A program made the translations under genes and the position numbers. Shown here one piece after another: positions 1,182 to 20,902 of a stretch of 36,320 nt of DNA (the stretch's first letter is position 1; every line of letters begins with the position of its first letter). The notes below the pieces were generated by a model. The model ran no database searches. It was not told the origin of the DNA and saw nothing but the letters and a program-made list of their open reading frames with translations. The DNA comes from a virus: positions 1 to 36,320 of the IMG/VR virus record IMGVR_UViG_3300046794_000174; one strand, 5' to 3'.

Positions 1182-1223
1182 GGCGCTCCGCTCGAAAGAC
1201 TGCATTCTCAGCAGCGGAGCGCC
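1182..1223 (-). promoter_or_regulatory. Long inverted repeat covering the tailspike ribosome-binding site
   Basis: The arms GGCGCTCCGCT (1182-1192) and AGCGGAGCGCC (1213-1223) are perfect 11-bp complements with a 20-nt loop. On the minus-strand RNA the 3' arm contains the tailspike Shine-Dalgarno (CGGAGCG). The 5' arm lies upstream of the start site predicted for the adjacent late promoter (about 1197). Read-through RNA could therefore hide the ribosome site, while RNA from the local promoter could not. The repeat is seen directly; the switching role is inferred. Confidence 0.55.
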
Positions 1224-1235
1224 CGGTACGTATAC
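1204..1235 (-). promoter_or_regulatory. Predicted late promoter (copy 4), before the tailspike
   Basis: The motif GGTACGTATAC (1225-1235), followed on the minus strand by 15 bp and the -10-like GAGAAT (1209-1204). Predicted start is near 1197, giving a ~19-nt leader with an SD. It has the same layout as the copies at 14709-14740, 15792-15823 and 20871-20902. There is no sigma70 -35 box, so I infer an activator bound at the motif. Confidence 0.6.
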
Positions 1236-1240
1236 GCCGT

Positions 1241-4200
1241 TTAGTGGTCGATCTTCCCGTGGACGATGCCATTCCACCAGTCCTGCAAGGCCTGTGGATC
1301 TTGCTTGCCCTGCGAGACATCCCACAGGAACTGTGTCGTGCTGGCGGGCTGCCCGAGCGGTAGGCCAAGCACATACCCGGCCGTGGTCATGCTGTGCTTC
1401 AGCACTTTCGGATCCGTTTCCTTTCCGGTCAGCGCATTCGCTGCGTCGATGCCGGACTTGCCGATCGCATCGACCATGCCGGCCGCCGGCGTGACGCTGT
1501 AGTCCTTGCCGGTCAGGTAGTGCGCTGACAGATCGCGCAGGATCGGCACGCCGGCGAACGCCGCCGAGACGAACTCTTTCCCGGCCCATGCGAGCCAGTG
1601 CGTATCACCTTCATCGTCCTTTTGCGGGTGCAGCATGTGGTGCATGGTCTGTACACCCAAGGTGTAGATCAGGAACCGCATGATCACGGTCGCGGCCAGC
1701 GTCGAGTCCTTCCAGGTGCGCGCGTCGGCCGCGAGCCGGCCGGTATCCATCAGGCGGTTCACGTTGTGGTTCCAGAAGGTGTAGAACATCGTGAACAGCT
1801 TGAAGAACTCGGGCCCGCGCTGCACGGCTGCCAAGTCCTTCACGCCGGTACCGCCGTGAGCATTGCGCACGGTCTTGTCGGCGAAGTAGATGGCGTCCTG
1901 TTCGCTCAGTCCTTTGCCGCCTTTCTCGACCGGCGCCATTCCTTTATGGTACGCGCCCATCCAAGTCGGCAATGCACTGGCCATGTCGAACATGGCGATG
2001 CCCTGGTAGGCGTGGGCTTTCATCAGGTCGGTACCGCGTGCGAGCGCACCGCTGCTCGGATCCATCAGCCGGATGTCGATTTCGCGCATATGCTCGCGTA
2101 CGTCGCGGTCGACCTCGTTCATCCGGTTTCGCATCTCGCCCGAGCGCTCGAATACGAAGTCGCGGTTCGCGGCCCAGCCTCGCGGGTCGGCGAAGTCGGC
2201 AAGACCTTTTCCGAACCAGACCGGGCCCACCTCGGCGATCGACTCCATGGCCGCCGAGCTGCCGTGTACGAGCATCGTCGACAGCCGGTAGCCCAGACCT
2301 ACGATAGTCGCGCGCGTGCGCGCACCGTGCGCGACGGCGTCGAACCATTTCAGCGCCTGCATGTCTACCTTGCGGTCGTTCGCGATCGACTGTAGCCACG
2401 GGCGCAGCTGGTCGTAATGCTCCTGGCTCAGCGCGTCGACGATGGACTTGCGCACGGTCGGGTTGCGCAGAAACTTGTCGGCGTCCATGATGGCCTCGCG
2501 GTAGGCGATGTCGTGCACCTCGTCGCGGATCACGCGCGGGATGGCGTCGAGCGACAGGAGCAGTGGCCGGGCGTAGTTCGCGCTACGCGTGTTGGTGCGG
2601 CCGGTATCCGTATTGGCACGCGCGTATACATTCTCGAACAGGCTGTCGGCGTCGCGCGCACCGCGCATGGCAACGTCGTGCGAGCGCGCCGGGTCATAGA
2701 TCATCGGCCAGTACCAGCCTTCATAGCGGCCGTGCGGCGTGTCGAACGGCCGCGGCGCAATCTTGTCCGGGCTGGTGCTGCCCAGTCGGCGCGACATCGC
2801 TACCTTTTCCGGCCACAGGGATTCCAGCGTGCGCCCCATGCCGGCGATGAAGTCCCAGTCGGCCTTGCTCATGTTCTGGTTCAGGAACTGCCACACGGCG
2901 CTCTCACTCCAGCGCTCGCCGGCGAGCAGCTTCGACATGTTCGACTCGTTGCCCATGTTGCCGGCCAGGGCCAGCATTTCCTTCTTCGTGAAGCGCTGCG
3001 GCTTTCCGGTCAGGCCGTCGATCAGGCCCGGCGCCTCGTAGATCTTACCCTTGTCGCGGGTGACGTCGGCCAGGTGCGCATCGAGCAGCTTGTCGATCTC
3101 GCCCTTGACCTTGGCCAGCAGGTCCGCTTCCTTCACGCCGGCGTCGGCGATGCGGCGGAACACGACGCGGTTCAGGACGCCGTTAGGGTTGCGGTCGTCC
3201 AGCCAGTCCATCATCTGTTCCATCTTCAGCAGCGAGGCCTGCGCACTGCGGCCGGCGCTCTTGAGCTTGAGCAGCGCGGCATCGATGCGCGTCAGACCGC
3301 GGTTGCTCTCATCGCCGCGCTGGGGCAGGGCGCCCATCACCTCGGCGGCCTCGCGCGCGAGCTCGTCGATGTCGCGCGCCTTTTCGCCGTCGGCGACCTT
3401 CTGCACGTTGCGGCCCAGGTGGTCGAGCGACTTCACGGCATCGACCAGACCGCGAAACTCCTCGACCGTCATGTCCTTGAAGTGCTGGCGGCGCGCCTCA
3501 TTCAGCAGGCCTTCCGGTACCTGCGGCTCCAGGCCTTGGGCGGACAGCTGCTCGACGAACGCGAGCAGCGACTGGCGCGCATCCAGCGCCGTGTTGCTGG
3601 TGGACTTGCGCAGGTCGAAACGATCGAGCAGGGCGTCGATCTGGTCGCGGTACTCAAGCGCGATCTTCTCGCGCACGCTCGCCTTGTCGAACTTGGATAG
3701 GTAGGCCACACCCTTCTGCACCTCGGCGACGGCGTCGCTTGCCGCCTTGAACAGCCGGTTGTTCAGGAGGGCCGCGCGCTGCTGTTGCGCGGCACCGGCC
3801 GGGTCCTTCGCGGCCAGCTTGATGGCCTCCTTGTTGGCACGCGCCTCGGCGGCAGCGTGCTGGGCCGGGCGCAGGTCGCGCACACGCTTGACGGCGACGG
3901 CGGTCTCGGCGGCCTCGCGCGCGGCTTCGGCGAGCTGGCGAGCGGGTATCGGCGACTTGGCCAGCAGCTTCAACCCGGTGGCGATAAAGCGGGCGCGCGT
4001 CTCGTTGTGCACGGCGGCCTCGGCGGCGCGCTCGACGCTGATCGGGTCGACCAGGTCCCCGTGGCGCTCGAGCATGCGGCGGTCGGTTTCCTGCTCGATG
4101 CGGTCCTTCAGCTTCCCGGCTTCCTTGATGGCCTTGCGCAGCGTGGCGCCGTCCTCGAAGCCGAACATCTCGGCCACGATGTCGATACCCGGATCCGCGC

Positions 4201-6982
4201 GGCCAGGGCGAGGGTTCTCCTGTTCCCAGGAAAGCAGCCGACGCTCGACCTCGTTGGCGATCGCGCGCTTATTCTTAGCCAGGAACTGGCCGCGCTTCAG
4301 CCCCTTGGTAGCGGCGCCTTCCTCGCTGGCCAGGTATTCACCCTTCACCTCATCATGCAGCCGCGTCTGTTCGGCGTCACGGCGGCCCTCCCACTCACGC
4401 ACGGCTTCGGCCGGCGCCGGATCGGTGCCATGCGGACGCTTCAGGTAGGCTTCAGCCTGGCGCACGGGCTCTGCGTCCATCTCACGCGTGACCTCTTCGC
4501 GGATCGCCTTACGCTGGGCGTCCGCCTGCTTCTGGAGTTCGCGCAGGGCCTTGCCCTTCGCGTTGCTCGCCCACTGCATGTCGCGCAGGCTGCGCGCGCC
4601 CATCTCATCTATGGCCTTGTCGGTCGCCGCGCGGCCGAGCGCGTGATAGGCGGCGATCTGCTCGGGTGTGCCCTCGACGTGCAGCGGCAGGTACCCGCGC
4701 GCCTGCTCGGTGTAGCGGATCGCATTGTCGGTGGCCACCAGGCGGTCCATCACGCCGCGCACTTCGTCCGTCAGATCGACGTGCAGATTCGTCATCGACT
4801 TGTACACGGCCACGAGCCACGAGCGGAAGCGGGAGAACAGGCCCTGCAGCTCCATCGTCGGCGCTTTCCCTTCCATCAGGTACGCTTCGAAGCTGCGCGC
4901 AAACTGCTCGTGCCCGTCGCGCTTCTGGTCGAGCGTGCGCCCGCTCCAGTCGGCCAGGCGCTGCTCGGCCGCGTCGCCGGCCACGCCGAAGGAGCGCAGC
5001 AGCGTGTCGAAGTCGTCGCGCACCCCCTGCGGCGCTTCTGGCGCGCGGGCGATGTCGTGCATGGTCTCAAGGAAGAAGTGGCCGGACTCGTGCAGATACG
5101 AGCTCAGGTCTGCGGCTTTCAGCAAGCCGATCGTGTGGGTGGCCGGATCGAAGTTGGCGCGTGCGCCCTGGTCCAGACCGCCGGCCAGCGCCTCGCTCGT
5201 CACCTTCAGCGGATACTTCTCGAACAGCTCCGCCGGCCGCATGCCGGCGCGGTCGGCCATCGTGACGAAGAAGTCGCGCGTGAGGGCGGCGTAGGCGTTA
5301 TTTACCTCGGGCCGGAAGCGGCCGGTGGCGTTGAGCTGGTCGAGCACGTGGTCGTGGATCTGCTTCGCCTCGGCCTGCGCGGCGTCTTCGGCCGTCTTCG
5401 CTGCCAGGATCTTCCGGGCCTGCGCCGTCAGGTCGGCGTGCTGGGTCACGTAGAAGTGCTGGCTCTGCTCGTAGGTGAAGCCGTCCGGCTCCACCTTCAG
5501 GTGCGGCAGCAGCGGCTGGTCGAGCTTCCCGCCGGCGATGTGCGTGGCGTAGTCCTCGACCGGGATCCGGATATCGCCCTTCGTCTCGCGCGCCTCATGC
5601 AGCTGAGCGGCCACGTCCGGCATCAGGCGCTGCAGCTCGGGCATGCCGACGCCCGACTGGTTCAGCACCTCGGCGAACTTGTTGGCGTCGACGTACACCT
5701 CGTGTAACTGGCCGTTCTCCGTCACGCTGCGCACGAAGTCCTTGAAGCCCTCCTGGTCGCGACCGCGCGTCTTGCTCGCGGCTGCGGCCTCCCCCAGCTT
5801 CTGCAGCGCGGCCATGCCTTGCTCGGCAGCCTCGGCCTTCGTCGAGTCGGTATAGAACTGGCGGATGGCTTCGTGGTAGGACGGCTCCGGGCGCGGGCCC
5901 ATGGCACTGCCCAGCAGGGAACCGGACAGGCCGGCCAGCAGGGTATCTTCGATGTTGAAGGATTGCTGCATGCTGTCGGGCAGCGCCATGTTCATCACAT
6001 CGCGAGAGACCTCGCCGGCGGCGGCGCCGGATGCGAAGCCACCCAGCGCGCGGGCGGCCAGCCCGCCGGGCGCCGACAGCGGCATTACGCCGCCCAGCGT
6101 CGACGTCGCATACTGGGCCTGCGCGGCGCGGATCGCCTGCTGCGCATCGCCGGTGGCCTCGTAGACTTTGCGGCCGGTGTCGATCGCGTCGGTGACGGCC
6201 GGGAACGCCATGCTTTTCGCGCCGTGCGCCATCTGGTTGCCGACCACCTCGGCGGTGGTGCCTGCCGCGCCCGCCGCCTCGCCGCCGCTGCCGGTCAGCA
6301 CGATCTGGGACATCATGCCGGTGAGGTTGCCCAGCATGTGGGTTGCCTTCGATACGAAGGGCGCATCTTGGCCAAGCTGGAACGCGGGCGCGCTGGTGAC
6401 CAGTGGGTCGACCATATTGCGGAAATATGCGTCGCTGGCGGCAGTAGTCTGCTTGCCGGTGTACAGGCTGGCCACCTTGTCGTAGATGGTCGGGAACGCA
6501 CCCAGCACGATGTTCACCCCGGTGGCCGCCTTGTTGAAGCTGCCCGACAGGCCCTTCAGGAAATCCATGGGCAGGCCGGCGAGGGTATCGCCGAAGCTGG
6601 GCGCGCGCGCGGCCGGCGCCGGGCTGGGCAGCGCCTTGGCTGCTTGCTCAACGGATGCCAGCGGCGTGACGTCGTCGTGCGACTTCGCCGCGTTGTCCGG
6701 ATCGGTCAGGTACTTGGCCAGCACCGGCTGATCGGCAACGAGCTGGTCGGCGTTCATGGCCTTGAGCGCAGCTTGCTGCCGAATGACGTCGGGTTGGGCC
6801 TGCACGGTCTCCGGCGGCACGCCGACGTACTTGGCCAGGTGCTGGTATTCGGCGGCCTGGTCAGCGCTGGTACCGACGGCGAACTGCATGTTGTTGCGGA
6901 CCTGGACGGCGGTCGCCTGCGTGTCTTGGTGCATTACCGCCGCGGCTGCGGCGTCGAACTCGTTGCTGCTGTTATTTGCCAT
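1241..6982 (-). CDS. Giant internal virion / DNA-ejection protein (1,913 aa) with HExxH motif
   Basis: The start is taken at ATG 6982 (MANNSSNEF); it overlaps the preceding transglycosylase gene by 11 bp, and the upstream extension is just antisense-like low-complexity sequence. Size, position after two other internal proteins and before the tailspike, and long Ala/Glu/Arg helical stretches (roughly residues 770-1250) match the gp16-like inner-core proteins that podoviruses eject into the cell to carry DNA across the envelope. Residues 631-635 read HESGH inside LHESGHFFLE, a zinc-metallopeptidase HExxH signature also seen in large polyvalent phage proteins. The N-terminal ~200 residues are Ala/Gln-rich, and residues ~250-370 hold Gly/Ala-rich, possibly membrane-active segments. 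Protease activity is inferred from the motif only. Confidence 0.8.
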   Translation of the reverse strand: MANNSSNEFDAAAAAVMHQDTQATAVQVRNNMQFAVGTSADQAAEYQHLAKYVGVPPETVQAQPDVIRQQAALKAMNADQLVADQPVLAKYLTDPDNAAKSHDDVTPLASVEQAAKALPSPAPAARAPSFGDTLAGLPMDFLKGLSGSFNKAATGVNIVLGAFPTIYDKVASLYTGKQTTAASDAYFRNMVDPLVTSAPAFQLGQDAPFVSKATHMLGNLTGMMSQIVLTGSGGEAAGAAGTTAEVVGNQMAHGAKSMAFPAVTDAIDTGRKVYEATGDAQQAIRAAQAQYATSTLGGVMPLSAPGGLAARALGGFASGAAAGEVSRDVMNMALPDSMQQSFNIEDTLLAGLSGSLLGSAMGPRPEPSYHEAIRQFYTDSTKAEAAEQGMAALQKLGEAAAASKTRGRDQEGFKDFVRSVTENGQLHEVYVDANKFAEVLNQSGVGMPELQRLMPDVAAQLHEARETKGDIRIPVEDYATHIAGGKLDQPLLPHLKVEPDGFTYEQSQHFYVTQHADLTAQARKILAAKTAEDAAQAEAKQIHDHVLDQLNATGRFRPEVNNAYAALTRDFFVTMADRAGMRPAELFEKYPLKVTSEALAGGLDQGARANFDPATHTIGLLKAADLSSYLHESGHFFLETMHDIARAPEAPQGVRDDFDTLLRSFGVAGDAAEQRLADWSGRTLDQKRDGHEQFARSFEAYLMEGKAPTMELQGLFSRFRSWLVAVYKSMTNLHVDLTDEVRGVMDRLVATDNAIRYTEQARGYLPLHVEGTPEQIAAYHALGRAATDKAIDEMGARSLRDMQWASNAKGKALRELQKQADAQRKAIREEVTREMDAEPVRQAEAYLKRPHGTDPAPAEAVREWEGRRDAEQTRLHDEVKGEYLASEEGAATKGLKRGQFLAKNKRAIANEVERRLLSWEQENPRPGRADPGIDIVAEMFGFEDGATLRKAIKEAGKLKDRIEQETDRRMLERHGDLVDPISVERAAEAAVHNETRARFIATGLKLLAKSPIPARQLAEAAREAAETAVAVKRVRDLRPAQHAAAEARANKEAIKLAAKDPAGAAQQQRAALLNNRLFKAASDAVAEVQKGVAYLSKFDKASVREKIALEYRDQIDALLDRFDLRKSTSNTALDARQSLLAFVEQLSAQGLEPQVPEGLLNEARRQHFKDMTVEEFRGLVDAVKSLDHLGRNVQKVADGEKARDIDELAREAAEVMGALPQRGDESNRGLTRIDAALLKLKSAGRSAQASLLKMEQMMDWLDDRNPNGVLNRVVFRRIADAGVKEADLLAKVKGEIDKLLDAHLADVTRDKGKIYEAPGLIDGLTGKPQRFTKKEMLALAGNMGNESNMSKLLAGERWSESAVWQFLNQNMSKADWDFIAGMGRTLESLWPEKVAMSRRLGSTSPDKIAPRPFDTPHGRYEGWYWPMIYDPARSHDVAMRGARDADSLFENVYARANTDTGRTNTRSANYARPLLLSLDAIPRVIRDEVHDIAYREAIMDADKFLRNPTVRKSIVDALSQEHYDQLRPWLQSIANDRKVDMQALKWFDAVAHGARTRATIVGLGYRLSTMLVHGSSAAMESIAEVGPVWFGKGLADFADPRGWAANRDFVFERSGEMRNRMNEVDRDVREHMREIDIRLMDPSSGALARGTDLMKAHAYQGIAMFDMASALPTWMGAYHKGMAPVEKGGKGLSEQDAIYFADKTVRNAHGGTGVKDLAAVQRGPEFFKLFTMFYTFWNHNVNRLMDTGRLAADARTWKDSTLAATVIMRFLIYTLGVQTMHHMLHPQKDDEGDTHWLAWAGKEFVSAAFAGVPILRDLSAHYLTGKDYSVTPAAGMVDAIGKSGIDAANALTGKETDPKVLKHSMTTAGYVLGLPLGQPASTTQFLWDVSQGKQDPQALQDWWNGIVHGKIDH

Positions 6983-9670: not shown

Positions 9671-11731
9671 CTAGTTTGCGATTGAGACTTCCATGGTCAT
9701 GGAAGTGATGGTGATGGGGAGCGGGTCGCTCTGCCGCACCACGATAGCGGCGTCGCTTTCCCAGTCGGGCCGCACGTCGATTTCGATCTCGTCAGTGCGT
9801 AGCGCCGGCGCTACTCCATAGGGTTCGGTCGTACGCTGCTTGTACTGCACGAGTTGGTCGACGGAGGGGCCGGCGAAGATGCCGCTGGAATTCACGACGC
9901 GCATCCACACCTTGTTCACGTTCTTGACGCGCCCTTGGCCGTACCCTGTGTCGATCGACGCGGCCAGCGGCAGCGTCTTGGCGTCCGCTGTGATTGGCAG
10001 TCCAACCTGGACGACGCTCGCCGGGTTGTCGAGCGTGATCTGGCCGCCCGTGACCACGCGCTGGGGATGCACCGCGCCGTCGGCAAGAATGCTGACGGTC
10101 TTGCCCTCCAGCCAATCCAAGCCCGTGATCGTGGTCGTGGCCGCCCCGCTGTAGGTGGCCCCGCTGTCGACGAAGAAGGCGTTTGCAAGCTCTACGAACC
10201 TGCGGCTGCTCTGGCGCTCGATGTACCGCCGGTCGACGCCGCCGATGGTCCGGCGCACGATCACATACAGCACGTCCTCGCGCCCCTCGGCCACGACGGC
10301 GCAGGATTCGAACACGCCATCAGTGTCGTGCTGATGCCATGCGCCGACCTGCTGCTCCGGGACATACGTCAGGCCCAGCAGCTTGCCCGAGCTGCTGACG
10401 GCCCACACGATCGGCAATGGCGCCTTCGCGTACGCCATGTCGACCAGGTCGTAATCGTCGAAGAGGTGTGTAGAGCGGAGCGACAGGTCACCGGAGACGT
10501 AACCGCCCGACTCGCGCGAATACGACATCTCGCGCATATGGCCGCCGCGCGCGGCGCCATACAGCAAATTGCTGTTGATGGTGCAGGGCTGGACATTACT
10601 CGCGCCGATATACGACTGCGGCTTCACGGAAATGCTGGTTGGCGTCAGTGCATCGGTATTGATCGATGTGACGCGGAACTCTGCCGAGCTGGTCAACACG
10701 AGCAGGTCCGACAGCGGCACGAGGTGTCGGATCGTGTTCGCTTGCAGTGCCGCGATGCGGAAGGCAATACGGTCGTCGTCCTTCGTCGGCAACGAGTACG
10801 ACATGTCCGCTTCCGTACCCGCGCGAGTCATCCAGATTTTCTGCGGTGCGTTCGTGGTCCCGCCGAAATTGCGCCGCTGCTCGTAATAGCTGACGGCTGC
10901 CGGGTAGTCGCCGGCAACTTGGAACACCGGGTCATACGTCGGCGGCGTCAGCGACAGGTCGGCGGCGATATTGTCGTCGACCAGGCTGTTGTCGGTCGTG
11001 CGCCCAATGTAGCCGTATGTGCCCCCTAATTTTTTGTAGACCGCGTATTGGGTCGTCCCCGTGATGGCGCCCGCCGGTGGCGTCCAGCTGATTGTGTTCT
11101 TGGCGCCAGTTGCGAAGATGTTGTTCTGGCAGGTTCCCGCACTGCTTGCGGCCGACTGGGTGAGCAGGTCGCTCGAAAACGTGGTGACCACGTACGAGTA
11201 GTCATACTGGGTGCCCGCGCCGCTGGAGGCTGCAGCGACTGCTGTCGGCGGCTGAACCTGTGGCGTGAACGCGATTGCGACCAGAGTCCAGTTCGTCGGG
11301 CCCAGGCGTCGCAGTTCTCTTGGGGCATAGTTCGGGTGCACGAGGGTGAGCACGTCGCCAGATTGAATGAAGTGGATGTCGAACAGGTCTGCTTCGGCGT
11401 ATGGATTGGCGATCTCGTACGGCACGCCCCCACTCAACACCGTGGCCCCGTTTGTATGGAAACGGAAGCAGCCAGCGCCCAGCTCCAGAATCATGGTCTG
11501 CGTAGTCGAGAACGTGAATGGCAGCAGGCGCACACGTTTCGTCGAATCCTTCACCTCGCGCACGAATGCGAAGCCGGCCCGGTTCTCGATCGGACCTTGG
11601 GGCTTCGCGACGAAGTTGCGGCACAGGGCCACGCCCGTCTGGAACTTGGCATCGCTGATCTGGCCGAAGAATTCTGGGGTGAGCTCGCCACCGTTAAAGC
11701 TGGCGCGGTAAGTCCTCATGTTGGCGCCCAT
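9671..11731 (-). CDS. Tail nozzle / tail tubular protein B-like
   Basis: 686 residues from ATG 11731, chosen because GGAG lies 8 nt upstream and the codon follows the adaptor stop as TGATATG. The first 60 residues (FNGGELTPEFFGQ, then GPIENRAGFAF) are typical of the large nozzle protein of BPP-1-type and other podoviruses, which forms the distal tail tube below the adaptor. The rest is beta-rich, with a fibronectin-like stretch near 170-260 (PPTAVAAASSGAGTQYDYSYVVT) and later blade-like repeats. It lies 1 bp from the adaptor gene upstream and 11 bp from the core protein downstream. Family assignment is good; no enzymatic motif is seen. Confidence 0.8.
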   Translation of the reverse strand: MGANMRTYRASFNGGELTPEFFGQISDAKFQTGVALCRNFVAKPQGPIENRAGFAFVREVKDSTKRVRLLPFTFSTTQTMILELGAGCFRFHTNGATVLSGGVPYEIANPYAEADLFDIHFIQSGDVLTLVHPNYAPRELRRLGPTNWTLVAIAFTPQVQPPTAVAAASSGAGTQYDYSYVVTTFSSDLLTQSAASSAGTCQNNIFATGAKNTISWTPPAGAITGTTQYAVYKKLGGTYGYIGRTTDNSLVDDNIAADLSLTPPTYDPVFQVAGDYPAAVSYYEQRRNFGGTTNAPQKIWMTRAGTEADMSYSLPTKDDDRIAFRIAALQANTIRHLVPLSDLLVLTSSAEFRVTSINTDALTPTSISVKPQSYIGASNVQPCTINSNLLYGAARGGHMREMSYSRESGGYVSGDLSLRSTHLFDDYDLVDMAYAKAPLPIVWAVSSSGKLLGLTYVPEQQVGAWHQHDTDGVFESCAVVAEGREDVLYVIVRRTIGGVDRRYIERQSSRRFVELANAFFVDSGATYSGAATTTITGLDWLEGKTVSILADGAVHPQRVVTGGQITLDNPASVVQVGLPITADAKTLPLAASIDTGYGQGRVKNVNKVWMRVVNSSGIFAGPSVDQLVQYKQRTTEPYGVAPALRTDEIEIDVRPDWESDAAIVVRQSDPLPITITSMTMEVSIAN

Positions 11732-12414: not shown

Positions 12415-12445
12415 AAAAAAGGGCGACCCCGAGAGATCGCCCTTT
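12415..12445 (-). terminator. Strong intrinsic terminator between head and tail genes
   Basis: On the minus strand AAAGGGCGA pairs perfectly with TCGCCCTTT around a 10-nt loop and runs into TTTTTT. It lies between the stop of the 193-aa gene (12477) and the adaptor start (12398). The stem has 9 pairs, 6 of them G:C or C:G. Confidence 0.88.
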
Positions 12446-12476: not shown

Positions 12477-13058
12477 TCAGCCCTTGGCTTTGCCGGCGGC
12501 CTTGTCGGTCGGCTTGTCGTCGGCGGGCGCTGCCGGCGCGGCCGGTTCAGCTGCCGATGCGGCCTGCGTGGTCTGTGCCTGGACCAGGGCCGCCGCGAGC
12601 ACGGACATGTTGTGCGCGGCCTCGGCCAGCTTCGTCGCCGATTCCTGTTGCAGCGCCAGCATCTTTTCCATGCGTTCGGCATGCTCAGCGCGCTCTTCGG
12701 CCAGAGCCTTCGCGAACTGCTCAGCGAACTTGGTCGGATCGCCGACGGCGCTTTCCTGGTTGGCGGCGATCATCGTGGCGACGCGCTGCTTGTTCGACTG
12801 CTCGTACTCGGCGGCGCGGGCGCGGCCTTCGTCGCACAGCGGCTCGAGGTTGTCGGCCGGCAGACCGTCGTAATTGGCGACCTGGCCAGCCTCGAAAATC
12901 TGGTTGCCGATCAGGGATTTCTCCTTTACGCGGTACTGGACCGGCTTGCGCGGCGCGCCGACTTCGCTTGCGTCGGCGGCTTCGATCATGCAGCCGGCCA
13001 TCAGCGCGGCGGCCATCATGTTGGCGCCGAGGCGCGAATGCTTGAGATGACGGTTCAT
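12477..13058 (-). CDS. Virion-region protein of unknown function with N-terminal hydrophobic segment
   Basis: 193 residues from ATG 13058 (SD AGGAAAG about 7 nt upstream). Residues 11-28 (LGANMMAAALMAG) form a short hydrophobic stretch followed by a Cys, resembling a poor lipobox or signal peptide. Residues ~38-75 contain YRVKEKSLIGNQIFEAGQV and LPADNLEPL, a short domain that recurs in late regions of related phages. The middle is a charged helix (about 110-150) likely to form a coiled coil, and the tail is a disordered Ala/Pro/Lys segment. It lies between the cement protein and the tail adaptor, upstream of a terminator. No function can be assigned. Confidence 0.6.
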   Translation of the reverse strand: MNRHLKHSRLGANMMAAALMAGCMIEAADASEVGAPRKPVQYRVKEKSLIGNQIFEAGQVANYDGLPADNLEPLCDEGRARAAEYEQSNKQRVATMIAANQESAVGDPTKFAEQFAKALAEERAEHAERMEKMLALQQESATKLAEAAHNMSVLAAALVQAQTTQAASAAEPAAPAAPADDKPTDKAAGKAKG

Positions 13059-13088
13059 ATTCTTTCCTATGTCAGGGGAAGATAGGCA

Positions 13089-13101
13089 GGGGCGTGGCCC
13101 C
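13089..13101. other. Small intercistronic hairpin
   Basis: GGGGC-GTG-GCCCC between the cement-protein stop and the next start. It is a tight GC stem without a U-tract, so more likely an mRNA-stability or pausing element than a terminator. Confidence 0.3.
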
Positions 13102-13118
13102 CACCACTTCATGGTTTA

Positions 13119-13635: not shown

Positions 13636-14655
13636 TTACACCACGCGCGACTCGGTGTTCAGCAGCTGGTCGACCTTGCGCAGCGGGATGCCCATGAAGT
13701 TGGTCATCTTGTACGCATTGCCAAACTGGTTCGTGGCACTCTCGATCGACAGGGCGGTGTTCGACTTGTTGAGCGCGGCCACGCGCAGCATCGAGTACAC
13801 CGTGCGGTTCGCGTAGAACACCGGGCGGCCCATGGCCAGATTCGGTGGGCGATCCATGGCGCGGATCATCAGGTTGATGATCGCGGTCGCGGCTGCGGCT
13901 GCTTGGGTAGCGGTCTGGCCGGTCAGGTCGGACACGTTGATATTGCAGATGCGGACCACGTAGCGCCAGTCCTTGACCACCAGGCCGTTCTTCCACTGGT
14001 ACAGCGCGCGCAGCGCCTGGAAGAAGTTGCCGTTCGCATCCGGCACCGACTCTTCGCCCAGGTCCTGGTGTTGCAGGCCAGCCTTCGAGCCTTTCGGGAA
14101 CGGGCAGAACACGGTGTTCTCGCCCCACACGACCAGGTAAATCGAGGTGTTGTTCGAGCCCGTACCGCCGGCGTCCAGGATGTTCTGGGCGTTGCCCGCG
14201 CTCAGCGAGCTGTAGCGGGTTTGCAGGCCGAGGAACTGGCGCGGGTCCGTGCCCGGGTTGCCGTAGAACATGGCGCCGGCCATGGTCTGGTTCATCGCCT
14301 CGATGAAGGCTTCGTCTTCCGACAGGCGGAATGCGGCCTCGTTGCCGTTCAGCTTGGCCAGCTCGACGTCGATGTGCGAGCGCGCTTCCAGGATGCCGCA
14401 TGCCTCGTCGACCTGCGTGCTGGTCGATTTGGAGGTCGGAACGCCCTGGTTGATCATGCGGTAGAAGACCTGCGGCAGGCCCGTGCGGATGGTGACGCGG
14501 TGGCCGGTCGGCAGGTTGCCTTCCTTGAACACTGCATCTTCCAGAATCTCGTTGGTTTGGGACAGGAGCTCAGCCACCTTCGGCACCTGGCCATCGGGGT
14601 CGAGACGCTTTGCCCAGTCGGCGAGGGTGAGGGCGCCAGCTGCTAAAAGTGCCAT
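13636..14655 (-). CDS. Major capsid protein (BPP-1 Bbp17-like)
   Basis: 339 residues. The N-terminus (ALTLADWAKRLDPDGQ, then NEILEDAVFKEGNLPTGHRVT) and the C-terminus (AYKMTNFMGIPLRKVDQLL) are typical of the HK97-fold capsid family of BPP-1-like podoviruses. The scaffold gene upstream and cement gene downstream fit. It is preceded by a 104-bp gap with late promoter copy 3 and an SD (GGAG, 9 nt before ATG 14655). Placing a private promoter before the most abundant virion protein makes sense. No cleaved propeptide is evident. Confidence 0.87.
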   Translation of the reverse strand: MALLAAGALTLADWAKRLDPDGQVPKVAELLSQTNEILEDAVFKEGNLPTGHRVTIRTGLPQVFYRMINQGVPTSKSTSTQVDEACGILEARSHIDVELAKLNGNEAAFRLSEDEAFIEAMNQTMAGAMFYGNPGTDPRQFLGLQTRYSSLSAGNAQNILDAGGTGSNNTSIYLVVWGENTVFCPFPKGSKAGLQHQDLGEESVPDANGNFFQALRALYQWKNGLVVKDWRYVVRICNINVSDLTGQTATQAAAAATAIINLMIRAMDRPPNLAMGRPVFYANRTVYSMLRVAALNKSNTALSIESATNQFGNAYKMTNFMGIPLRKVDQLLNTESRVV

Positions 14656-14708
14656 ATCTTGTTTCTCCAGTGGTGGGGTATGACCGATAAGTGCTTCGGT
14701 GAAACTGA

Positions 14709-14740
14709 AGAGTAGATAAGGCGCGCGGCGGTACGTATAC
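14709..14740 (-). promoter_or_regulatory. Predicted late promoter (copy 3), before the major capsid gene
   Basis: GGTACGTATAC at 14730-14740, then 15 bp and TACTCT (14714-14709) on the minus strand. Predicted start is near 14702, a 47-nt leader. This copy is embedded in a longer palindrome (GGCGGTATACGTACCGCC), so an RNA hairpin is an alternative reading. A shifted -10 TTATCT is also possible. Confidence 0.6.
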
Positions 14741-14759
14741 CGCCACGGGAGGGAGGAGA

Positions 14760-15479
14760 TTACTTCTTCGAAGCGGCGCTGCCGTACAGGACTTCGGCAG
14801 CCGAGCGGTTAGCGCTGGCCGGAGCGCCGCCGGTGACGATGCGGTCCTCGCTGATGGCCTTGCCGGCGCGGACCATGAAGCGCACGACGTCCGGATGGTT
14901 ACCCAGGCCGGTCTGGTCCAGCATGGTCTTCAGCTCGGGCGTGCCGAACGTGTCGATCGCCTTGCGCGCGAAGCCCAGGTTCTCGGCCAGCTTGTCGCCG
15001 CCGAATTCCTTGTCGCTGGTCGACGCCGCGGCCCAGTCGGTGCGCAGCTGCTCGAGCTGGGCGGACTGCTGCTTCGCCATCACCGGCGCCATCTTGTCGA
15101 TCAGCTTCTGGGCGGCGTCCTGCGGCAAGTTCAGTTCGCGCGCCGCCGTCTCGAACTCGGTCATCACGGCGGCGTCCAGCGTGGAGCCTTCCGGCGCGGT
15201 GAACGGTTCGTACTTCTCGGGCGCACCGGTCTTGGCCGCTGCTTCCTCGGCTGCCTTGGCTGCGGCCTGGTCGGCGGCGATCTGCTCCGGGGTCTTCGTC
15301 CCTTCGTCAGCGGCCTCGCCAGTTTTCTCGCCCGGGGATGACGTCGTTTGCGTGGTTTCGCCAGCTGCTTCGCCAGTTCCGGCGGCAGGGGCGGATGCGC
15401 CATTGGCTACCGGCGCAGCAGCTGCAGGCGTCGCGGGCGTGGCCGGTGCTGCTTCGGTGATCAGGGTTCCGTCGGACAT
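14760..15479 (-). CDS. Capsid scaffolding protein
   Basis: 239 residues, acidic and low in aromatic residues. The N-terminal ~80 residues are disordered Ala/Pro/Thr/Glu-rich, residues ~75-100 hold an Ala/Glu helix (AAAKAAEEAAAKTG), and residues 120-190 form amphipathic helices. It ends SAAEVLYGSAASKK. The 'AxxVLYG/P' tail recurs in podovirus scaffolds and is the likely coat-binding end. Located directly upstream of the capsid gene. The same SAA(D/E)VLYG motif ends the 108-aa protein at 17019-17345. The start ATG 15479 overlaps the end of the Bbp19-like gene by 19 bp. Confidence 0.82.
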   Translation of the reverse strand: MSDGTLITEAAPATPATPAAAAPVANGASAPAAGTGEAAGETTQTTSSPGEKTGEAADEGTKTPEQIAADQAAAKAAEEAAAKTGAPEKYEPFTAPEGSTLDAAVMTEFETAARELNLPQDAAQKLIDKMAPVMAKQQSAQLEQLRTDWAAASTSDKEFGGDKLAENLGFARKAIDTFGTPELKTMLDQTGLGNHPDVVRFMVRAGKAISEDRIVTGGAPASANRSAAEVLYGSAASKK

Positions 15480-15784
15480 TGCGATTGCTCCTTCATCATG
15501 ATGGGGTAGAGGTCAGGGCATAGCTCGTGGATCTGCGCGAGCAGGCGCAGGCCTTCCGAGCGGCGCCCTTCGTTGAAAGCCATGGTCATGGCGGTGGGGT
15601 CGAAACTGGACTGGAAGACGCCGGCGGCGGCCAGCTGGCGCCATACGATGCGGCGGCCGCGCGGGTCGGCCATCAGCCACTTGAAGTCGGCGACTTCCTG
15701 CTTGCGCGCGAGTTCCCGGCGCTTCGCTTCGTCCTCGCGCTGCGTGTCCTGCTGGTGGGTATCGAGGGGGTCAAAGTCTTCCAT
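15461..15784 (-). CDS. Bbp19-like small phage protein
   Basis: 107 residues if started at ATG 15784 (MEDFDPLD); an in-frame ATG at 15808 would add eight residues. Neither has an SD. Late promoter copy 2 predicts a transcript start near 15785, so 15784 would be read as a leaderless message. The core (FKWLMADPRGRRIVWRQLAA, GVFQSSF, MAFNEGRRSEGLRLL and PDLYPIMM) is the conserved Bbp19 family, found next to scaffold and capsid genes of BPP-1-like phages. Its role is unknown, perhaps in assembly. It overlaps the scaffold gene. Confidence 0.78.
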   Translation of the reverse strand: MEDFDPLDTHQQDTQREDEAKRRELARKQEVADFKWLMADPRGRRIVWRQLAAAGVFQSSFDPTAMTMAFNEGRRSEGLRLLAQIHELCPDLYPIMMKEQSQCPTEP

Positions 15785-15791
15785 GGCCGCC

Positions 15792-15823
15792 ACTGTATGA
15801 GCGGCCATGGACGGTACGTATAC
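15792..15823 (-). promoter_or_regulatory. Predicted late promoter (copy 2), before the Bbp19-like and scaffold genes
   Basis: GGTACGTATAC at 15813-15823, then 15 bp and TACAGT (15797-15792) on the minus strand. TACAGT is the same hexamer used by both early promoters. The motif begins 4 bp after the stop of the SGNH hydrolase. Predicted start near 15785. Confidence 0.65.
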
Positions 15824-15826
15824 AGG

Positions 15827-16999
15827 CTAGGATTTCAGGGCGACGGCTACTGCGCGTGCAACATCGGCATACCCGACGGCAAGCGGGTGCAGCGTGTCGG
15901 AGTACATGCCCAGCGCGTTGCTGACGGCATATGAGCCCCAGCGCTGGGTCAGATTGATGAACGGCAGGTTGTTTGCGAGGGCGATTTGACGGGCAGCGTC
16001 GATGTATTTTGCCTGCACATCGGTGGTGGCCGCCGTGGGGCTGGACGGTATGCCAGACATGATGATCACATCTCCGGTGGTCAGCGCCGCGGTTATGATC
16101 GCCTGCAAGTACGTCGTGTAGCTCGCCATGTCAGTTGCGTTGCTCCAGTCGTTGATCGTCAAACTGATCACAGTCAGGTCCGGCGCAACCTGAGGAAGAT
16201 TGGAGACCGGAGTCACGTTGTTGATGTACGAAGCATTTGCCGTTGCCCAGTCCACGACCTTGGAGCCGTGCCAGCCGAGGTTGCAGACATCGACTTTCTT
16301 GCTGGTCGAGTCGTAGGTAACGACGCCGGCTATGTAGACCGATCCACCAGTCGTGCGCGCGATGTTCAGCACACTTGTGGCGAGCGCCTTGGTGACGATG
16401 ACTTTATTCAGGGCGCCCGATCCGCTCGGCGTGACAGTAGCCAGAGTTGCGCCGCCGTCCGCGTTCACGGTGAACGTGCCGCTGCCCGCCAGGTCGGCAT
16501 ACCAGACTTCTGCCGTGTCCCACGACACCCCGGGCGTAAAGGCCATGGTGTCGGTGATGCCATTGGCGCGCATGCTGTTGCCGTTCAGCACGTACGAGGA
16601 CTGCACCCAGTTGGGCGCGGCCACGCGCGGGTCCGTCGCTGGCAGCATGTTCCTGCCCCAGCACGAGGAGGCCGTAGCCGGTACGTCCGCGCTATTCAGC
16701 AGTGCCGCTAGCAGCGTTGGGTAGGACCCGGGAACGGCATTCGTGGTGCCGCTATTGGCTGAGCCAGTTCCCGCCGTGGTCGAGTCGCCAACCAGCGCCA
16801 GTCGGGCGCGACCGGTGCCCGCGCGCACTGCGCCGATTGCTTTGCGCCAGCGGCGCAGGTTGTTGCTGCTGAAGTTGAGGAATTCGGAAGGGGTCGCCAG
16901 CGTCGGGAAAAACACTTCTTGTCCGTTTACCCTGGCGCCAATCGCGCGGCCGGCTTCATCAATAATAAATTCGCCCTTGAGGGTTTGATTGCCTGACAT
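15827..16999 (-). CDS. SGNH/GDSL-family hydrolase in the head gene cluster
   Basis: 390 residues. Block I is LALVGDSTTAG with nucleophile Ser73, block III-like SLTINDW carries the oxyanion Asn, and block V DTLHP carries the Asp/His pair, so the triad of an SGNH esterase/lipase looks intact. The first ~55 residues (GEFIIDEAGRAIGARVNGQEVFF) are a separate module that may anchor the enzyme to the virion. An insert of ~100 beta-rich residues lies between blocks I and III. A likely reaction is removal of O-acetyl groups from host surface polysaccharide. Its place between portal and scaffold, framed by a late promoter just after its stop, suggests a late-expressed added gene. Start ATG 16999 has GGAG 8 nt upstream. 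Confidence 0.8.
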   Translation of the reverse strand: MSGNQTLKGEFIIDEAGRAIGARVNGQEVFFPTLATPSEFLNFSSNNLRRWRKAIGAVRAGTGRARLALVGDSTTAGTGSANSGTTNAVPGSYPTLLAALLNSADVPATASSCWGRNMLPATDPRVAAPNWVQSSYVLNGNSMRANGITDTMAFTPGVSWDTAEVWYADLAGSGTFTVNADGGATLATVTPSGSGALNKVIVTKALATSVLNIARTTGGSVYIAGVVTYDSTSKKVDVCNLGWHGSKVVDWATANASYINNVTPVSNLPQVAPDLTVISLTINDWSNATDMASYTTYLQAIITAALTTGDVIIMSGIPSSPTAATTDVQAKYIDAARQIALANNLPFINLTQRWGSYAVSNALGMYSDTLHPLAVGYADVARAVAVALKS

Positions 17000-17018
17000 T
17001 TAATTTTCTCCAGTTGAG

Positions 17019-17345
17019 TTACTTGGTGCCGTACAGGACATCCGCCGCCGACTTTGCCGGCATGGCGATGTCCATATCGGTGATCTGCAGGTCGACGCAC
17101 GTCCGCATTTGCTCGCCGTCCTTGCTGGACTGGGTAGCGCGTTGGCTCGTGCCGGTGACCATGACCGTGACCGTGGCCGGCATCGACGTGCCGACCTTCG
17201 GCAGATCGGTGATGCCGAGCTTCTTCAGCGTGTCGTCGTCCAGGTACAGCGTCAGGCCGTACGGGTACTTCGGCAGGCTGTCATCGTCCGGCTCGACGCC
17301 GTACTCGCTCTTCGCTTCTTCTTTCGTCATTGCCAGATTGGGCAT
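17019..17345 (-). CDS. Small head protein sharing the scaffold's C-terminal motif
   Basis: 108 residues from ATG 17345 (MPNLAMTKEEAKSEYG). The middle has YPYGLTLYLDDDTLKKLGI followed by beta-strand-rich MPATVTVMVTGTSQ, reminiscent of small head or portal-associated proteins encoded beside podovirus portals. It ends SAADVLYGTK, nearly the same as SAAEVLYGSAASKK at the end of the scaffold protein. That suggests both bind the same face of the coat or portal. It follows the portal gene by 20 bp. The function is not established; capsid stabilisation or portal recruitment is inferred. Confidence 0.65.
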   Translation of the reverse strand: MPNLAMTKEEAKSEYGVEPDDDSLPKYPYGLTLYLDDDTLKKLGITDLPKVGTSMPATVTVMVTGTSQRATQSSKDGEQMRTCVDLQITDMDIAMPAKSAADVLYGTK

Positions 17346-17365
17346 GTCGGGTTCCTCTCCTGTGC

Positions 17366-19045
17366 TTATTGGCCGAGGCCTTGGGCGAACATGCCCATGA
17401 CGTCGGAAGCGGCATTGCCGCCGGTGGTGGGCGTGGCGCCCAGGTTCTTCGCTGTGGCGGATGCCTGCTCGGCGGCCTGAAGCTGGGCGGCCTGTTGCTG
17501 CGCCTGTGCGCGCTGCTGCCGGATCATGGCCACTTTGTCGGATGGAGTGATCAGGCTTGGCGGGACGCCGAGCATGTCGCTGTAGGCGTCGACCCACTGG
17601 TCAGCATCGAACTTGTCGAGCACCTCGGGCTTCATCTGGGCGATCACACCGAGGTTGCCAGTGAAACGGTCCACGCCGTTGGTCGCTACCGCACGCTGAG
17701 CCTGGGCGAGCACCGACGTGTACTCGACATCGAGCTGGATCCCGTGCAGTTCGGGGGGCGGCGGAGGCAGGGCGTTCGCCTGTAGCAGCATCTCGAAGGC
17801 GTTGTCGACCAGCGGCGCCAGGGCCTCGTTGTCCAGGCGCTCCAGCACGGGCCCCAGCATCAGCAGCTTTTCCTCGTGACGCTCAGCCACCTCCGTGGCG
17901 GTCATGCCCGTATGGTCGATCTGGGACAGCATCAGGAACAGGTCGGTGTAGAACGCCTCATTGATGCGCTGCCGCACATCCTGCATGTTCACGCGCAGGT
18001 GCGACAGGTCGAGATTCACCTGCCAGGCGGGCATGATCGCGCCCTTGCCGGCACCGGTCGTCGGGTCGTAGTAGCTGACGCCGCCCGGCAGAGTGTCTAG
18101 CGGCTGGTTCTTCATCGTGAGCGGCACCTGAAGCGGGGGCTTCGTCTGGTAGTCGATGGCTTGGCCTTGGCGCAGGTTCTGGTGCTGCAGCTGCTTCACG
18201 TCGCCCAGGGCTTCCATACCGGGCGAGTTGCCGTAGATGTCGCCTCCGGCAAGATCCCAGCGCGGGCAGATCGCCGGGAAGCGCCTGAAGCCGGATTCGC
18301 GCAGGTACTGGTTGTCGTTCACGCCCTGCTCGAAATACGTGCTGGACCACGCCATGTTCGCTGGATCCAGCTTCGTCGGGTCGCGGTCGGCACGCGGCTC
18401 GATCGCGTGGACAACGGTCACCCAGCTGTCCAGGTCTCCGCGGTCGTACAGCGTCTTCACGGTCGCGCTGATCTGCGTCATCCCGAATTCCTTCACCAGG
18501 CTGCCCACGGTAGTCTGGAACTCGCGGTAGATCGTGCACACCTCGCCGCGCCAGTCGGTGGCGATGCAGTACTCGCCCGTGGTCAGGGGCGTGTGATGCA
18601 GCACGTCGCGGAAGTCCGGGACGATCAGGCTGGCACCGGTACCGAAGCCGCCCATCTCGTTGTAGAGGGAGTGCAGGGCGCGGTAGGTGTTCGACTTCTG
18701 GAAGACCGCCAGGATCAGGCCGGTCACGTCGTCCAGCCACTGCTTCACCGCCTGAGCCTTCATGAGGTCGGTGTCCTTCACCTTCAGGCGAAACCACGGC
18801 CGTGCCGGAGACGTTGCACCGCCCATCAGGCCAGCGGAGAGGATCCGCAGCGCGCGCGTGCCGGTTGAATCGTAGATGGCGTTGTGGCGGCGGTCGCCCT
18901 TGTTGCGGTCCTCGATGAAGAAACGGCCCTGGCGAGGGAGAAGGTTGCGGGAGATTTCCTGCCAGTGCGAGAACCAGCTGGCGCGCTCGCGCTTGAGCAT
19001 GCCCCAGCGGTTCAGCAACTCGTTGCGGGTGGTTGACTGTGCCAT
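17366..19045 (-). CDS. Portal protein (T7-like head-tail connector family)
   Basis: 559 residues. It opens with RNELLNRWGMLKRERASWFSHW and NLLPRQGRFF and has RALRILSAGLMGGATSPARPWF near residue 65, both hallmarks of the podovirus head-tail connector family. The 12-mer ring sits at one capsid vertex and is the DNA entry and exit channel. The C-terminal ~60 residues are Gln/Ala-rich (QQRAQAQQQAAQLQAAEQA), as in related portals. Its ATG at 19045 overlaps the last base of the preceding 104-aa gene, consistent with translational coupling. Confidence 0.92.
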   Translation of the reverse strand: MAQSTTRNELLNRWGMLKRERASWFSHWQEISRNLLPRQGRFFIEDRNKGDRRHNAIYDSTGTRALRILSAGLMGGATSPARPWFRLKVKDTDLMKAQAVKQWLDDVTGLILAVFQKSNTYRALHSLYNEMGGFGTGASLIVPDFRDVLHHTPLTTGEYCIATDWRGEVCTIYREFQTTVGSLVKEFGMTQISATVKTLYDRGDLDSWVTVVHAIEPRADRDPTKLDPANMAWSSTYFEQGVNDNQYLRESGFRRFPAICPRWDLAGGDIYGNSPGMEALGDVKQLQHQNLRQGQAIDYQTKPPLQVPLTMKNQPLDTLPGGVSYYDPTTGAGKGAIMPAWQVNLDLSHLRVNMQDVRQRINEAFYTDLFLMLSQIDHTGMTATEVAERHEEKLLMLGPVLERLDNEALAPLVDNAFEMLLQANALPPPPPELHGIQLDVEYTSVLAQAQRAVATNGVDRFTGNLGVIAQMKPEVLDKFDADQWVDAYSDMLGVPPSLITPSDKVAMIRQQRAQAQQQAAQLQAAEQASATAKNLGATPTTGGNAASDVMGMFAQGLGQ

Positions 19046-19359
19046 CAGGTGCCCCCGCCGCCCAGCAACGTGGTCTTGCCGAGTGTGAGCAGGTTCGGGT
19101 CAATGCCGCCGGCGCCGGTCAACATCGTGCTGGCCTGGCCGGCCTTGCCATTCGTGAGGTTCGCGGACAGCAGCGCGTCGCTGTCCGGCTTCTTCTGGTT
19201 GGCCTTGTTGGTAGCTTGAGCCGTTGCATCTGCCGTTTTTTTGGCGTTTTGCTCGGCCTGCTGATTCGCCTCTTCGGCGCGTGCATTGGCGTTCTTGTTC
19301 GATACGTAGGCCGACGTTGCGCTGACGGCAACGGCGGCCCATGCTGCGGCTGCTCCCAT
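19045..19359 (-). CDS. Small Ala-rich virion-associated protein
   Basis: 104 residues. It starts with a hydrophobic Ala/Val stretch (residues 2-20, AAAAWAAVAVSATSAYV), followed by a charged Ala/Gln/Asn helix likely to be a coiled coil (residues 22-56) and a Gly-rich tail. Composition resembles the small membrane-active core protein at 9108-9659, so it could be another ejected or head-interior protein. It lies between the GNAT/hydroxylase fusion and portal genes, touching the portal gene. Assignment is by composition and place only. Confidence 0.55.
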   Translation of the reverse strand: MGAAAAWAAVAVSATSAYVSNKNANARAEEANQQAEQNAKKTADATAQATNKANQKKPDSDALLSANLTNGKAGQASTMLTGAGGIDPNLLTLGKTTLLGGGGT

Positions 19360-19369
19360 GATGTATTCC

Positions 19370-20407
19370 TTACTCGGTGATGGCGTCGATGATCAGGTGG
19401 ATGCGCGGCCGAGCACTTTGGTTGAATACCTCGTGCTCGGCGCGATGGTTGAATTTCCACAGCTCGCCGGGCTTCATGTGGATGGCCTCGGCGCCGTTGT
19501 GGAAGGTGTTCCCCTCGTCCGACTGCAGGACCAGGTGGAAGCGTTCGAAGTGCTCGGCGTATGCGCCTTCGTCGACGTGCCGGTCGATGTGCCCGCCGGG
19601 CGCCAGTTCAACCAGCATGACGCGGCCGAGGGCCACAGCACGGATGCGCCTGCACGCTGCCGCGCACAGATCGCGCACGGCCGGCAGCATTTCCACGGCT
19701 GGCGTATCGACGCTCTCCAGCATGTTGAAAACGACGTCGCTGGTGATCACGTCGGCCGCCGGGCCGCGCAGGACAATGCAGCGTGTGTCGTGATGTGGAC
19801 TGCCGGGCGCATTCTGGCGCGCGGTGAATGCATCCCAGAGCTCCGCGGGCGCCAGTTGCCCCAGGCCGCTGATCGGGCATGGGTCGCTCATGTCGCCGAA
19901 CAGAGCGGCCATCACGTCCAGGTTGCCGTAGAAGCGGAAGTTGGACGCCGGCAGCTCCTTGCTGAAAATGATGTCCTGCACGGTGCAGCCAATGCGCGGC
20001 AGGATGTCAGCCAGCGGCGTGTTTTCCTTCGCGTGCCACATCACCATGCGCGCGCCGCGCTTGGCGGCCGCATTCTCGGTTTCTTGGATCAAGCGCATGC
20101 CGACGCGGCCGGCGCGATGGGCCTTGCCGACGAACAGCAGGTCGTTGTTCGCCATGACCAAGTCGGAATAGTGCAGGTTCGTGCTGATGATGTTGACGGA
20201 ATATCCAATGATCTCGGCGCCGGCGTAGGCGACGATGGCAAACAGCCTGCCGCCCTGTTCGAGACGGCGGTACTGGGAGACGTCAGGTGACAGGACCATC
20301 AGGTGCTTGTTGCGCGCGATCTCGTCCCAGTGCTCTTCCTGCAGGGCTTCGCACATGGCGATCTTGTCGGTGATCGTGTCGCACTCGACGTAACGGACTT
20401 CCGGCAT
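19370..20407 (-). CDS. GNAT acetyltransferase fused to an aspartyl/asparaginyl beta-hydroxylase-like dioxygenase
   Basis: 345 residues in two parts. Residues ~1-152 are a GNAT fold, with the acetyl-CoA loop around RAGRVGMRLI (99-107) and the strand ARMVMWHA. They are clearly paralogous to the neighbouring 146-aa GNAT. Residues ~205-343 match the aspartyl/asparaginyl beta-hydroxylase family: VELAPGGHIDRH (iron ligand His277), FERFHLVL, a Gly-turn before GELWKFNHRAEHEVFN (second iron ligand His325), and RIHLIIDA (Arg335, 2-oxoglutarate contact). The usual 'FDDS' reads FNHR here. Two protein-modifying domains in one late gene between terminase and portal suggest modification of a virion or host protein. 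The target is unknown. Confidence 0.8.
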   Translation of the reverse strand: MPEVRYVECDTITDKIAMCEALQEEHWDEIARNKHLMVLSPDVSQYRRLEQGGRLFAIVAYAGAEIIGYSVNIISTNLHYSDLVMANNDLLFVGKAHRAGRVGMRLIQETENAAAKRGARMVMWHAKENTPLADILPRIGCTVQDIIFSKELPASNFRFYGNLDVMAALFGDMSDPCPISGLGQLAPAELWDAFTARQNAPGSPHHDTRCIVLRGPAADVITSDVVFNMLESVDTPAVEMLPAVRDLCAAACRRIRAVALGRVMLVELAPGGHIDRHVDEGAYAEHFERFHLVLQSDEGNTFHNGAEAIHMKPGELWKFNHRAEHEVFNQSARPRIHLIIDAITE

Positions 20408-20408
20408 C

Positions 20409-20849
20409 TCAAATCTCCTTCATGACAATGACATCGGCAGGGGCGTATCCGCGGCGCTGAAGCGTTGCAGCCAGCGGCGTACCGGCGCGGGTGTGCCAGA
20501 GCATGCGCATGGCGCCATAAGCGGCGGCCGTGCGCTCGGTCTCGGCAATGAGGCGCGCGCCGGCGCTGGTCTTCCGCCAGGCGCGGCGAACGAACAGCGC
20601 GTCGCTGTTGCAGCAGATGACCGCGGGGTTGTAGGTGTGAGGGGAGACCATGGCGGACGAGTAGCCGACCAGCTCGTCGTCATCGAACGCACCCAAGACG
20701 AACATCAGGCCGGCGTCCTGCAGCCTGCGCACCATCTCGACGTCCGGACGCAGATCGAAATCGAAGCCTGTTTCGGCCCAGTTCTCGGACAGCAGGTCCT
20801 GGACCTTCCTTATGTAATCGGCAGCTTTGATTTCTCGAATGACGAGCAT
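20409..20849 (-). CDS. GNAT-family N-acetyltransferase
   Basis: 146 residues with a complete GNAT core: N-terminal helix pair, FVLGAFDDDELVGYSS (beta 2-4), SDALFVRRAWRKTSAGARLI (acetyl-CoA binding turn) and LWHTRAGTPLAATLQRRGY. About half of the positions in the last 90 residues match the GNAT half of the next gene, which starts 1 bp downstream, so this is a tandem duplication. First gene after late promoter copy 1, with a GGGGGA SD just before ATG 20849. Related phages carry GNAT genes beside terminase; the substrate is not known and it may be structural. Confidence 0.8.
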   Translation of the reverse strand: MLVIREIKAADYIRKVQDLLSENWAETGFDFDLRPDVEMVRRLQDAGLMFVLGAFDDDELVGYSSAMVSPHTYNPAVICCNSDALFVRRAWRKTSAGARLIAETERTAAAYGAMRMLWHTRAGTPLAATLQRRGYAPADVIVMKEI

Positions 20850-20870
20850 GGCATCCCCCTATGGACGAGC

Positions 20871-20902
20871 ATCGTAGGAGGGGGGAGGGCGGGTACGTAT
20901 AC
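20871..20902 (-). promoter_or_regulatory. Predicted late promoter (copy 1), between terminase and GNAT genes
   Basis: GGTACGTATAC at 20892-20902, 2 bp after the terminase stop codon, then 15 bp and TACGAT (20876-20871) on the minus strand. Predicted start near 20864, a ~15-nt leader holding the SD of the GNAT gene. Confidence 0.65.

Follow-up and report, generated by a model that had tools for sequence, protein, structure and literature searches.

The stretch of viral DNA analysed here (the window: positions 1 to 36,320 of IMG/VR virus record IMGVR_UViG_3300046794_000174) belongs by its TerL to the group of podovirus-like phages that includes epsilon15, phiV10 and BPP-1. Its late genes read along the minus strand, and four of the gaps between them carry the 11-mer GTATACGTACC, which is the late-strand reading of GGTACGTATAC. 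The gene for a helix-turn-helix (HTH) protein sits just before the terminase genes, as does bbp27 in BPP-1. The features that concern us are the following.

20892..20902, minus strand: putative activator box GTATACGTACC (exact motif) of the promoter before the GNAT genes, in the gap between TerL and GNAT
20871..20876, minus strand: -10 element TACGAT at the fixed spacing, 15 bp after the box; predicted +1 near 20864
15813..15823, minus strand: putative activator box of the Bbp19/scaffold promoter (exact motif; same gap in relatives)
15792..15797, minus strand: -10 element TACAGT, 7 nt from the Bbp19 ATG; predicted +1 at or next to 15784/15785, that is, at the ATG
15461..15784, minus strand: Bbp19 (Pfam Phage_Bbp19, 8.2e-17), start corrected by alignment
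14730..14740, minus strand: putative activator box of the major capsid gene promoter (exact motif)
14709..14714, minus strand: -10 element TACTCT at the fixed 15-bp spacing; predicted +1 near 14702
13636..14655, minus strand: major capsid gene (PHROG major head protein, 5.6e-86), proposed to be driven by the third promoter
1225..1235, minus strand: putative activator box of the tail (tailspike/tail fibre) gene promoter (exact motif)
1204..1209, minus strand: -10 element GAGAAT, conserved in 6/6 distinct phages; predicted +1 near 1197, with the tail gene ATG at 1178
23213..23542, minus strand: HTH protein of 109 aa, homolog of BPP-1 Bbp27 (homology and AlphaFold2), proposed late-gene activator

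Elsewhere in the window, a strong hairpin with a T run after it, resembling a terminator, lies on the late strand at 12418-12445, after the gene at 12477-13112, and a protein with a Tad2-like domain (PF11195, 1.5e-21) encoded at 24714-25292 is a candidate anti-Thoeris counter-defence gene.

The original prediction, made from the letters of the window alone, had taken the 11-mer for the core of a late promoter family with four copies and no others. The count holds: the exact motif occurs at the four positions listed and no further match was found in the window, even when 2 mismatches were allowed. From base composition 0.0074 exact copies would be expected (Poisson P(≥4) 1.3e-10, uncorrected for the choice of this 11-mer). 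Several other 11-mers of the window, GC-rich and coding, are likewise found 4-5 times, so repetition by itself is weak evidence and not unusual. The case for the motif rests instead on placement, orientation and spacing. All four copies lie on the minus strand, reading with the late genes, and, as had been claimed, between them: each falls wholly inside the 419 of 22,366 late-region bases (1.9%) that are non-coding according to our own gene calls. Each is separated by exactly 15 bp from the -10-like hexamer that had been proposed for it, namely TACGAT (copy at 20892), TACAGT (15813), TACTCT (14730) and GAGAAT (1225). The last is a weak match to a -10 element, yet it is kept at the tail gene in 6/6 distinct phages of the window's clade. 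The dyad within the motif is real too, and in two copies it extends to GGTA-TACG-TACC. A consensus sigma70 promoter, with a TTGACA-like -35 at a distance of 16-18 bp, is missing from the late strand throughout the late region. The sole TTGACW-N17-TAnnnT promoter of the window, at 28394-28422, stands before an early Cro-like gene at 28134-28403, beside the S24 repressor.

The prediction would have been refuted had the motif been missing from the same gaps in relatives, and this test was passed. IMG/VR records with ~70-90% identical TerL carry the same motif, in the form GTATACGTMCC, in the same four gaps: between TerL and GNAT, upstream of Bbp19, between scaffold and capsid, and between the giant protein and the tail gene. 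Apart from the window, the box is present in the TerL-GNAT gap of L005, L007, L008, L009, L011, L012, L383 and G011, in the capsid gap of L007, L008, L009, L012, L089 and L383, and in the tail-gene gap of G002, G003, G006, G011 and G012. The last five, which are near-complete genomes, have exactly four copies apiece, all on one strand, and no reversed or other-strand copy was found in any of them; the four copies in the window are not due to chance. The motif stays with Bbp19 even where the SGNH-type ORF upstream of it is missing (L007-L009) or swapped for other DNA (L012). In the window this ORF (15827-16999) separates the portal-side genes from the Bbp19 promoter, and the corresponding place in L012 (about 14352-17523) holds another insert; the place resembles a cargo spot immediately ahead of a promoter. 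When the whole collection was scanned for the exact 11-mer with TAnnnT, most matches were due to chance, and the chief gain was L089 and L383.

Beyond this clade, the homologous gaps of BPP-1, DC33, zth2-2, ctEw122, ctQRb9, the plasmid-prophage pA and marine relatives hold a more general element, nGTR-NN-YRT-NNN followed after 15 bp by TAnnnT. The reading of the window sites as four promoters is supported; the exact 11-mer proved to be specific to the clade and the element itself broader; three of the window sites fit the general pattern exactly, and the tail site has GAGAAT. The BPP-1 box, GGTGCCCGTGCC, is found upstream of the GNAT gene bbp24, of bbp19 and of bbp9, and a fourth time ahead of TerS; BPP-1 lacks the copy at the capsid gene. 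DC33 and ctQRb9 share the box GGTACCCGTATC, ctEw122 has GGTGCCCGTATM, zth2-2 mainly GGTACCCGTAAC, pA GGTGCCTATRCC and the marine phages (T)GTGACCGTAAC or (A)GTGCCCGTA; SR18 carries no more than a divergent box, GGTGCGCATGAT, and its -10 elements are less regular. A phage's own box has 3.1 further sites per 40 kb, compared with about 0.06-0.08 for boxes 4-6 mismatches away; the boxes are phage-specific. The motif of the window is very probably one phage's version of a late-gene control signal used by the whole phage group, including Bordetella phage BPP-1.

Spacing and strand served as controls for this pattern. A count over seven genomes, complete or nearly so, gave 27 late-strand matches to the general pattern at 15 bp and 2 on the other strand, with at most 4 matches on either strand at other spacings of 10-20 bp. 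Upstream of Bbp19, 29 phages have the element at 15 bp, and no other spacing between 5 and 26 accounts for more than 2; the box is present there in 29/33 non-redundant phages positive for the HTH gene and in 0/18 negative ones (Fisher 2.6e-10; L089 was entered as positive although its locus ends before the HTH gene). The exceptions among HTH-positive phages are L027 (altered box), L029 (none), L460/SR18 (-10 off) and L502 (spacing of 14). Because these same sequences had served to shape and refine the search pattern, the controls by spacing and strand outweigh the Fisher value, which also overstates independence in that presence of the HTH gene and of the element may reflect one shared ancestry. 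The -10 at the Bbp19 site is mostly TA[GC]A[TG]T, with A as the fourth base in 95%, a preference that the search pattern did not require. Together, the gaps of the relatives and the diverged versions support the promoter reading, although promoter activity and binding remain untested.

In phage L006, in which no HTH homolog was found, a 16-bp repeat, AAACGCAGAACTCTAC, occurs at 11415 just after TerL and again downstream at 13761, and is possibly another late element. In the marine relatives L488 (6947-7927), L490, L492, L496-L498 and L503, the best TerL match sits between TerS and GNAT, encoded on the opposite strand, with an identity to the query of only about 31%, which suggests that the terminase was replaced and inverted within an otherwise conserved late cassette in several marine phages.

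The dyad could also be read as an operator of the lysogeny repressor that shuts the late promoters in the prophage. The record of epsilon15 (L461) annotates repressor-binding sites upstream of gp3 and of the tail gene (2931-2947 and 19895-19911), which fits such a reading; the element itself, as well as any Bbp27 homolog, is absent from epsilon15, and its annotated sites suggest that late control there is different. In the window, however, no box lies near the repressor/Cro control region, and the box takes the position of a -35, with no -35 nearby. Moreover, the early genes including the repressor (bbp28-bbp50) are not common to all compared genomes, whereas the element is. We therefore regard the operator reading as very improbable and retain that of late promoters with a phage-specific box in place of the -35.

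For Bbp19, alignment with relatives most likely replaces the start at 15808 by that at 15784 (ATGGAAGAC). The distance from the -10 to the Bbp19 ATG, 7 nt in the window, is 5-8 nt in 28/29 phages and 10 nt in the remaining one; 5-8 nt is what would be expected if the ATG lay at a real transcription start point. Since such a distance leaves no room for a Shine-Dalgarno sequence, we predict that the Bbp19 mRNA is leaderless and begins at or next to its ATG.

Of the four promoters, three are nested within inverted repeats in the window's clade.

1182..1224, minus strand: inverted repeat around the -10, with the 5' arm in the spacer (upstream of +1) and the 3' arm over the GGAG Shine-Dalgarno of the tail gene
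15780..15811, minus strand: inverted repeat around the -10, with the 5' arm in the spacer and the 3' arm over the Bbp19 ATG
20850..20890, minus strand: weaker inverted repeat, in which a C-run of the spacer pairs with the AGGGGG Shine-Dalgarno of the GNAT gene

The tail-gene repeat has a z-score of -5.8 in the window and of -4.2 to -8.6 in relatives, the Bbp19 repeat one of -5.6 and of -2.4 to -4.8, respectively, and the GNAT repeat one of -1.25 in the window. When each phage's own spacer/leader pairing was compared with pairings swapped between phages, the arms matched better within than between phages at all three sites (permutations as good: 54/5000 at the tail gene, 35/5000 at Bbp19 and 107/5000 over nine phages at GNAT). 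Nothing of the kind was seen at the capsid site. Conservation of the hairpins across the whole family was tested and rejected, as they are absent or sporadic in BPP-1 and most others and confined to the window's clade. Both arms would be present only in RNA that comes in from upstream. In such read-through RNA the hairpins would mask where translation of the tail, Bbp19 and GNAT genes begins, leaving each gene to be translated mainly from its own late promoter; this silencing is inferred.

That strong inverted repeats (z-scores of -3 or lower) follow two of the window copies might instead mean that the motif is no promoter, being part of an RNA structure or processing site. We give this almost no credence: the box is not part of the repeats and is kept where they are missing, the window has no Rfam match, and the fixed spacing from box to -10 to ATG would be left unexplained.

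The likeliest protein to read the box is the HTH protein. Among 49 BPP-1 proteins, Bbp27 is the only non-virion one with homologs in all seven other genomes compared (the window, zth2-2, DC33, ctEw122, ctQRb9, pA and SR18), and in nearly all loci found with BPP-1 Bbp27 as the query the HTH gene is linked to the late cassette. The AlphaFold2 model of the window protein is a confident HTH, with a mean pLDDT of 85 and HTH helices at residues 45-80. A fold search with it gave no significant match among solved structures; its matches among viral models are mainly HTH domains of HNH endonucleases, a likeness that explains why Bbp27 is annotated as an 'endonuclease'. No nuclease domain was found in the HTH proteins (78-109 residues), and the dyad suggests, by inference, that the box is bound by an HTH dimer.

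The clearest case of phage-specific boxes is that of BPP-1 and pA. Here the four sites have all changed their box together, BPP-1 having GGTGCCCGTGCC and pA GGTGCCTATRCC, a difference that a single changed trans-acting factor would explain. The late genes around the sites are mostly 85-99% identical and the HTH proteins 51%; as a caveat, the terminase genes nearest the HTH gene diverge more as well (TerS 74%) and the tail-side genes have been replaced.

The same promoters could nevertheless be served by a box whose reader is not Bbp27 or its homologs but some other factor of the phage, or a transcription or sigma factor of the host. Similarity of the HTH proteins to known regulators is weak, the PHROG 'late transcriptional activator' giving only weak matches in 9/35 homologs (best 2e-4), on which we do not rely. 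Co-evolution does not favour the HTH gene over others either: in a partial Mantel test on 28 phages it was not singled out, and motif distance tracked portal and Bbp19 distance at least as well. A host factor, on the other hand, would not explain why the boxes of BPP-1 and pA differ, because both come from Bordetella bronchiseptica, and no other non-virion BPP-1 gene is common to all genomes compared. We consider such a factor unlikely, if still a possibility to be reckoned with. Because the distance test did not single out the HTH gene, its proposed role leans on gene content, linkage to the late cassette and the BPP-1/pA pair; there are no binding data. With binding and activation untested, the probable function of Bbp27 is that of a late-gene activator, in place of the annotated endonuclease.

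We thus think it likely that the four sites are sigma70-type late promoters in which the box of the HTH protein replaces the -35, combined with a leaderless Bbp19 mRNA and, in one clade, with hairpins. The host sigma70-type RNA polymerase would read all four; a 12-bp dyad box (GGTA-N4-TACC-like in the window) at about -39 to -28 would stand in for the -35, followed at exactly 15 bp by a TAnnnT -10; and the HTH protein would bind the box and recruit the polymerase, so that separate late transcripts start before the GNAT, Bbp19/scaffold, capsid and tail genes. The anatomy of the sites, their conservation and spacing, the phage-specificity of the boxes and the shared gene content are what we observed; in the absence of expression, transcript, binding or deletion data, promoter activity, HTH binding, the mechanism of activation and leaderless translation are inferences. 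We lean, by a small degree only, to a broader view in which an HTH domain of the HNH-homing-endonuclease kind, now stand-alone, has become the late activator of a BPP-1-like lineage that spans phages of Bordetella and of the sea, its boxes and protein having diverged from phage to phage, and in which the leaderless Bbp19 mRNA and the hairpins of one clade form a second layer of timing.

These results propose a system of late-gene control for BPP-1-like phages that can be tested in a well-studied phage, with the BPP-1/pA pair as a natural swap experiment for the specificity between activator and box. As the BPP-1 site just before bbp9 lies in front of mtd and the diversity-generating retroelement, we infer that the same switch may control tropism switching. 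The open-access literature yielded no description of the site and nothing relevant on Bbp27; the search did not extend to subscription papers, the original BPP-1 genome paper among them.

The closest known counterparts are systems of T4, P2 and Mu. In gene e, soc and I-TevI of T4, a late promoter lies within the DNA for the 5' arm of a hairpin, so that only read-through RNA hides the start, and for gene e and I-TevI the nested hairpin blocks translation of that RNA (PMC3014915); compared with these, the hairpins described here are known from sequence alone and only from the window's clade, where they lie at the tail, Bbp19 and GNAT genes. At the middle promoters of T4, the MotA box (with AsiA) replaces the -35 before a normal -10 (PMC7403470). 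The window likewise has a phage-specific box in place of the -35 upstream of a -10, but its system concerns late genes and its dyad box is longer, and Pfam gave no similarity of the HTH protein to MotA. In P2, the small activator Ogr serves four dispersed late promoters with a common dyad upstream element, TGT-N12-ACA, through a zinc finger, CX2CX22CX4C (PMC3931495). A small phage-encoded activator (here proposed), four dispersed late promoters and a dyad upstream element recur in the window, but its box is at the -35 position and its HTH protein has a single cysteine and no CX2CX22CX4C; TGT-N12-ACA has four matches in the window, which is chance level, and none at the four sites. In Mu, the dimeric activator C drives four late promoters from a site that coincides with the -35 or lies immediately upstream of it (PMC4461284). 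Dispersed late promoters under one phage activator (again, as proposed) are common to both, but box and spacing differ, and neither the HTH protein nor its homologs have a Pfam match to the Mor/C family. As judged from these comparisons, the system fails the tested defining features of P2 Ogr and Mu C but works like both.
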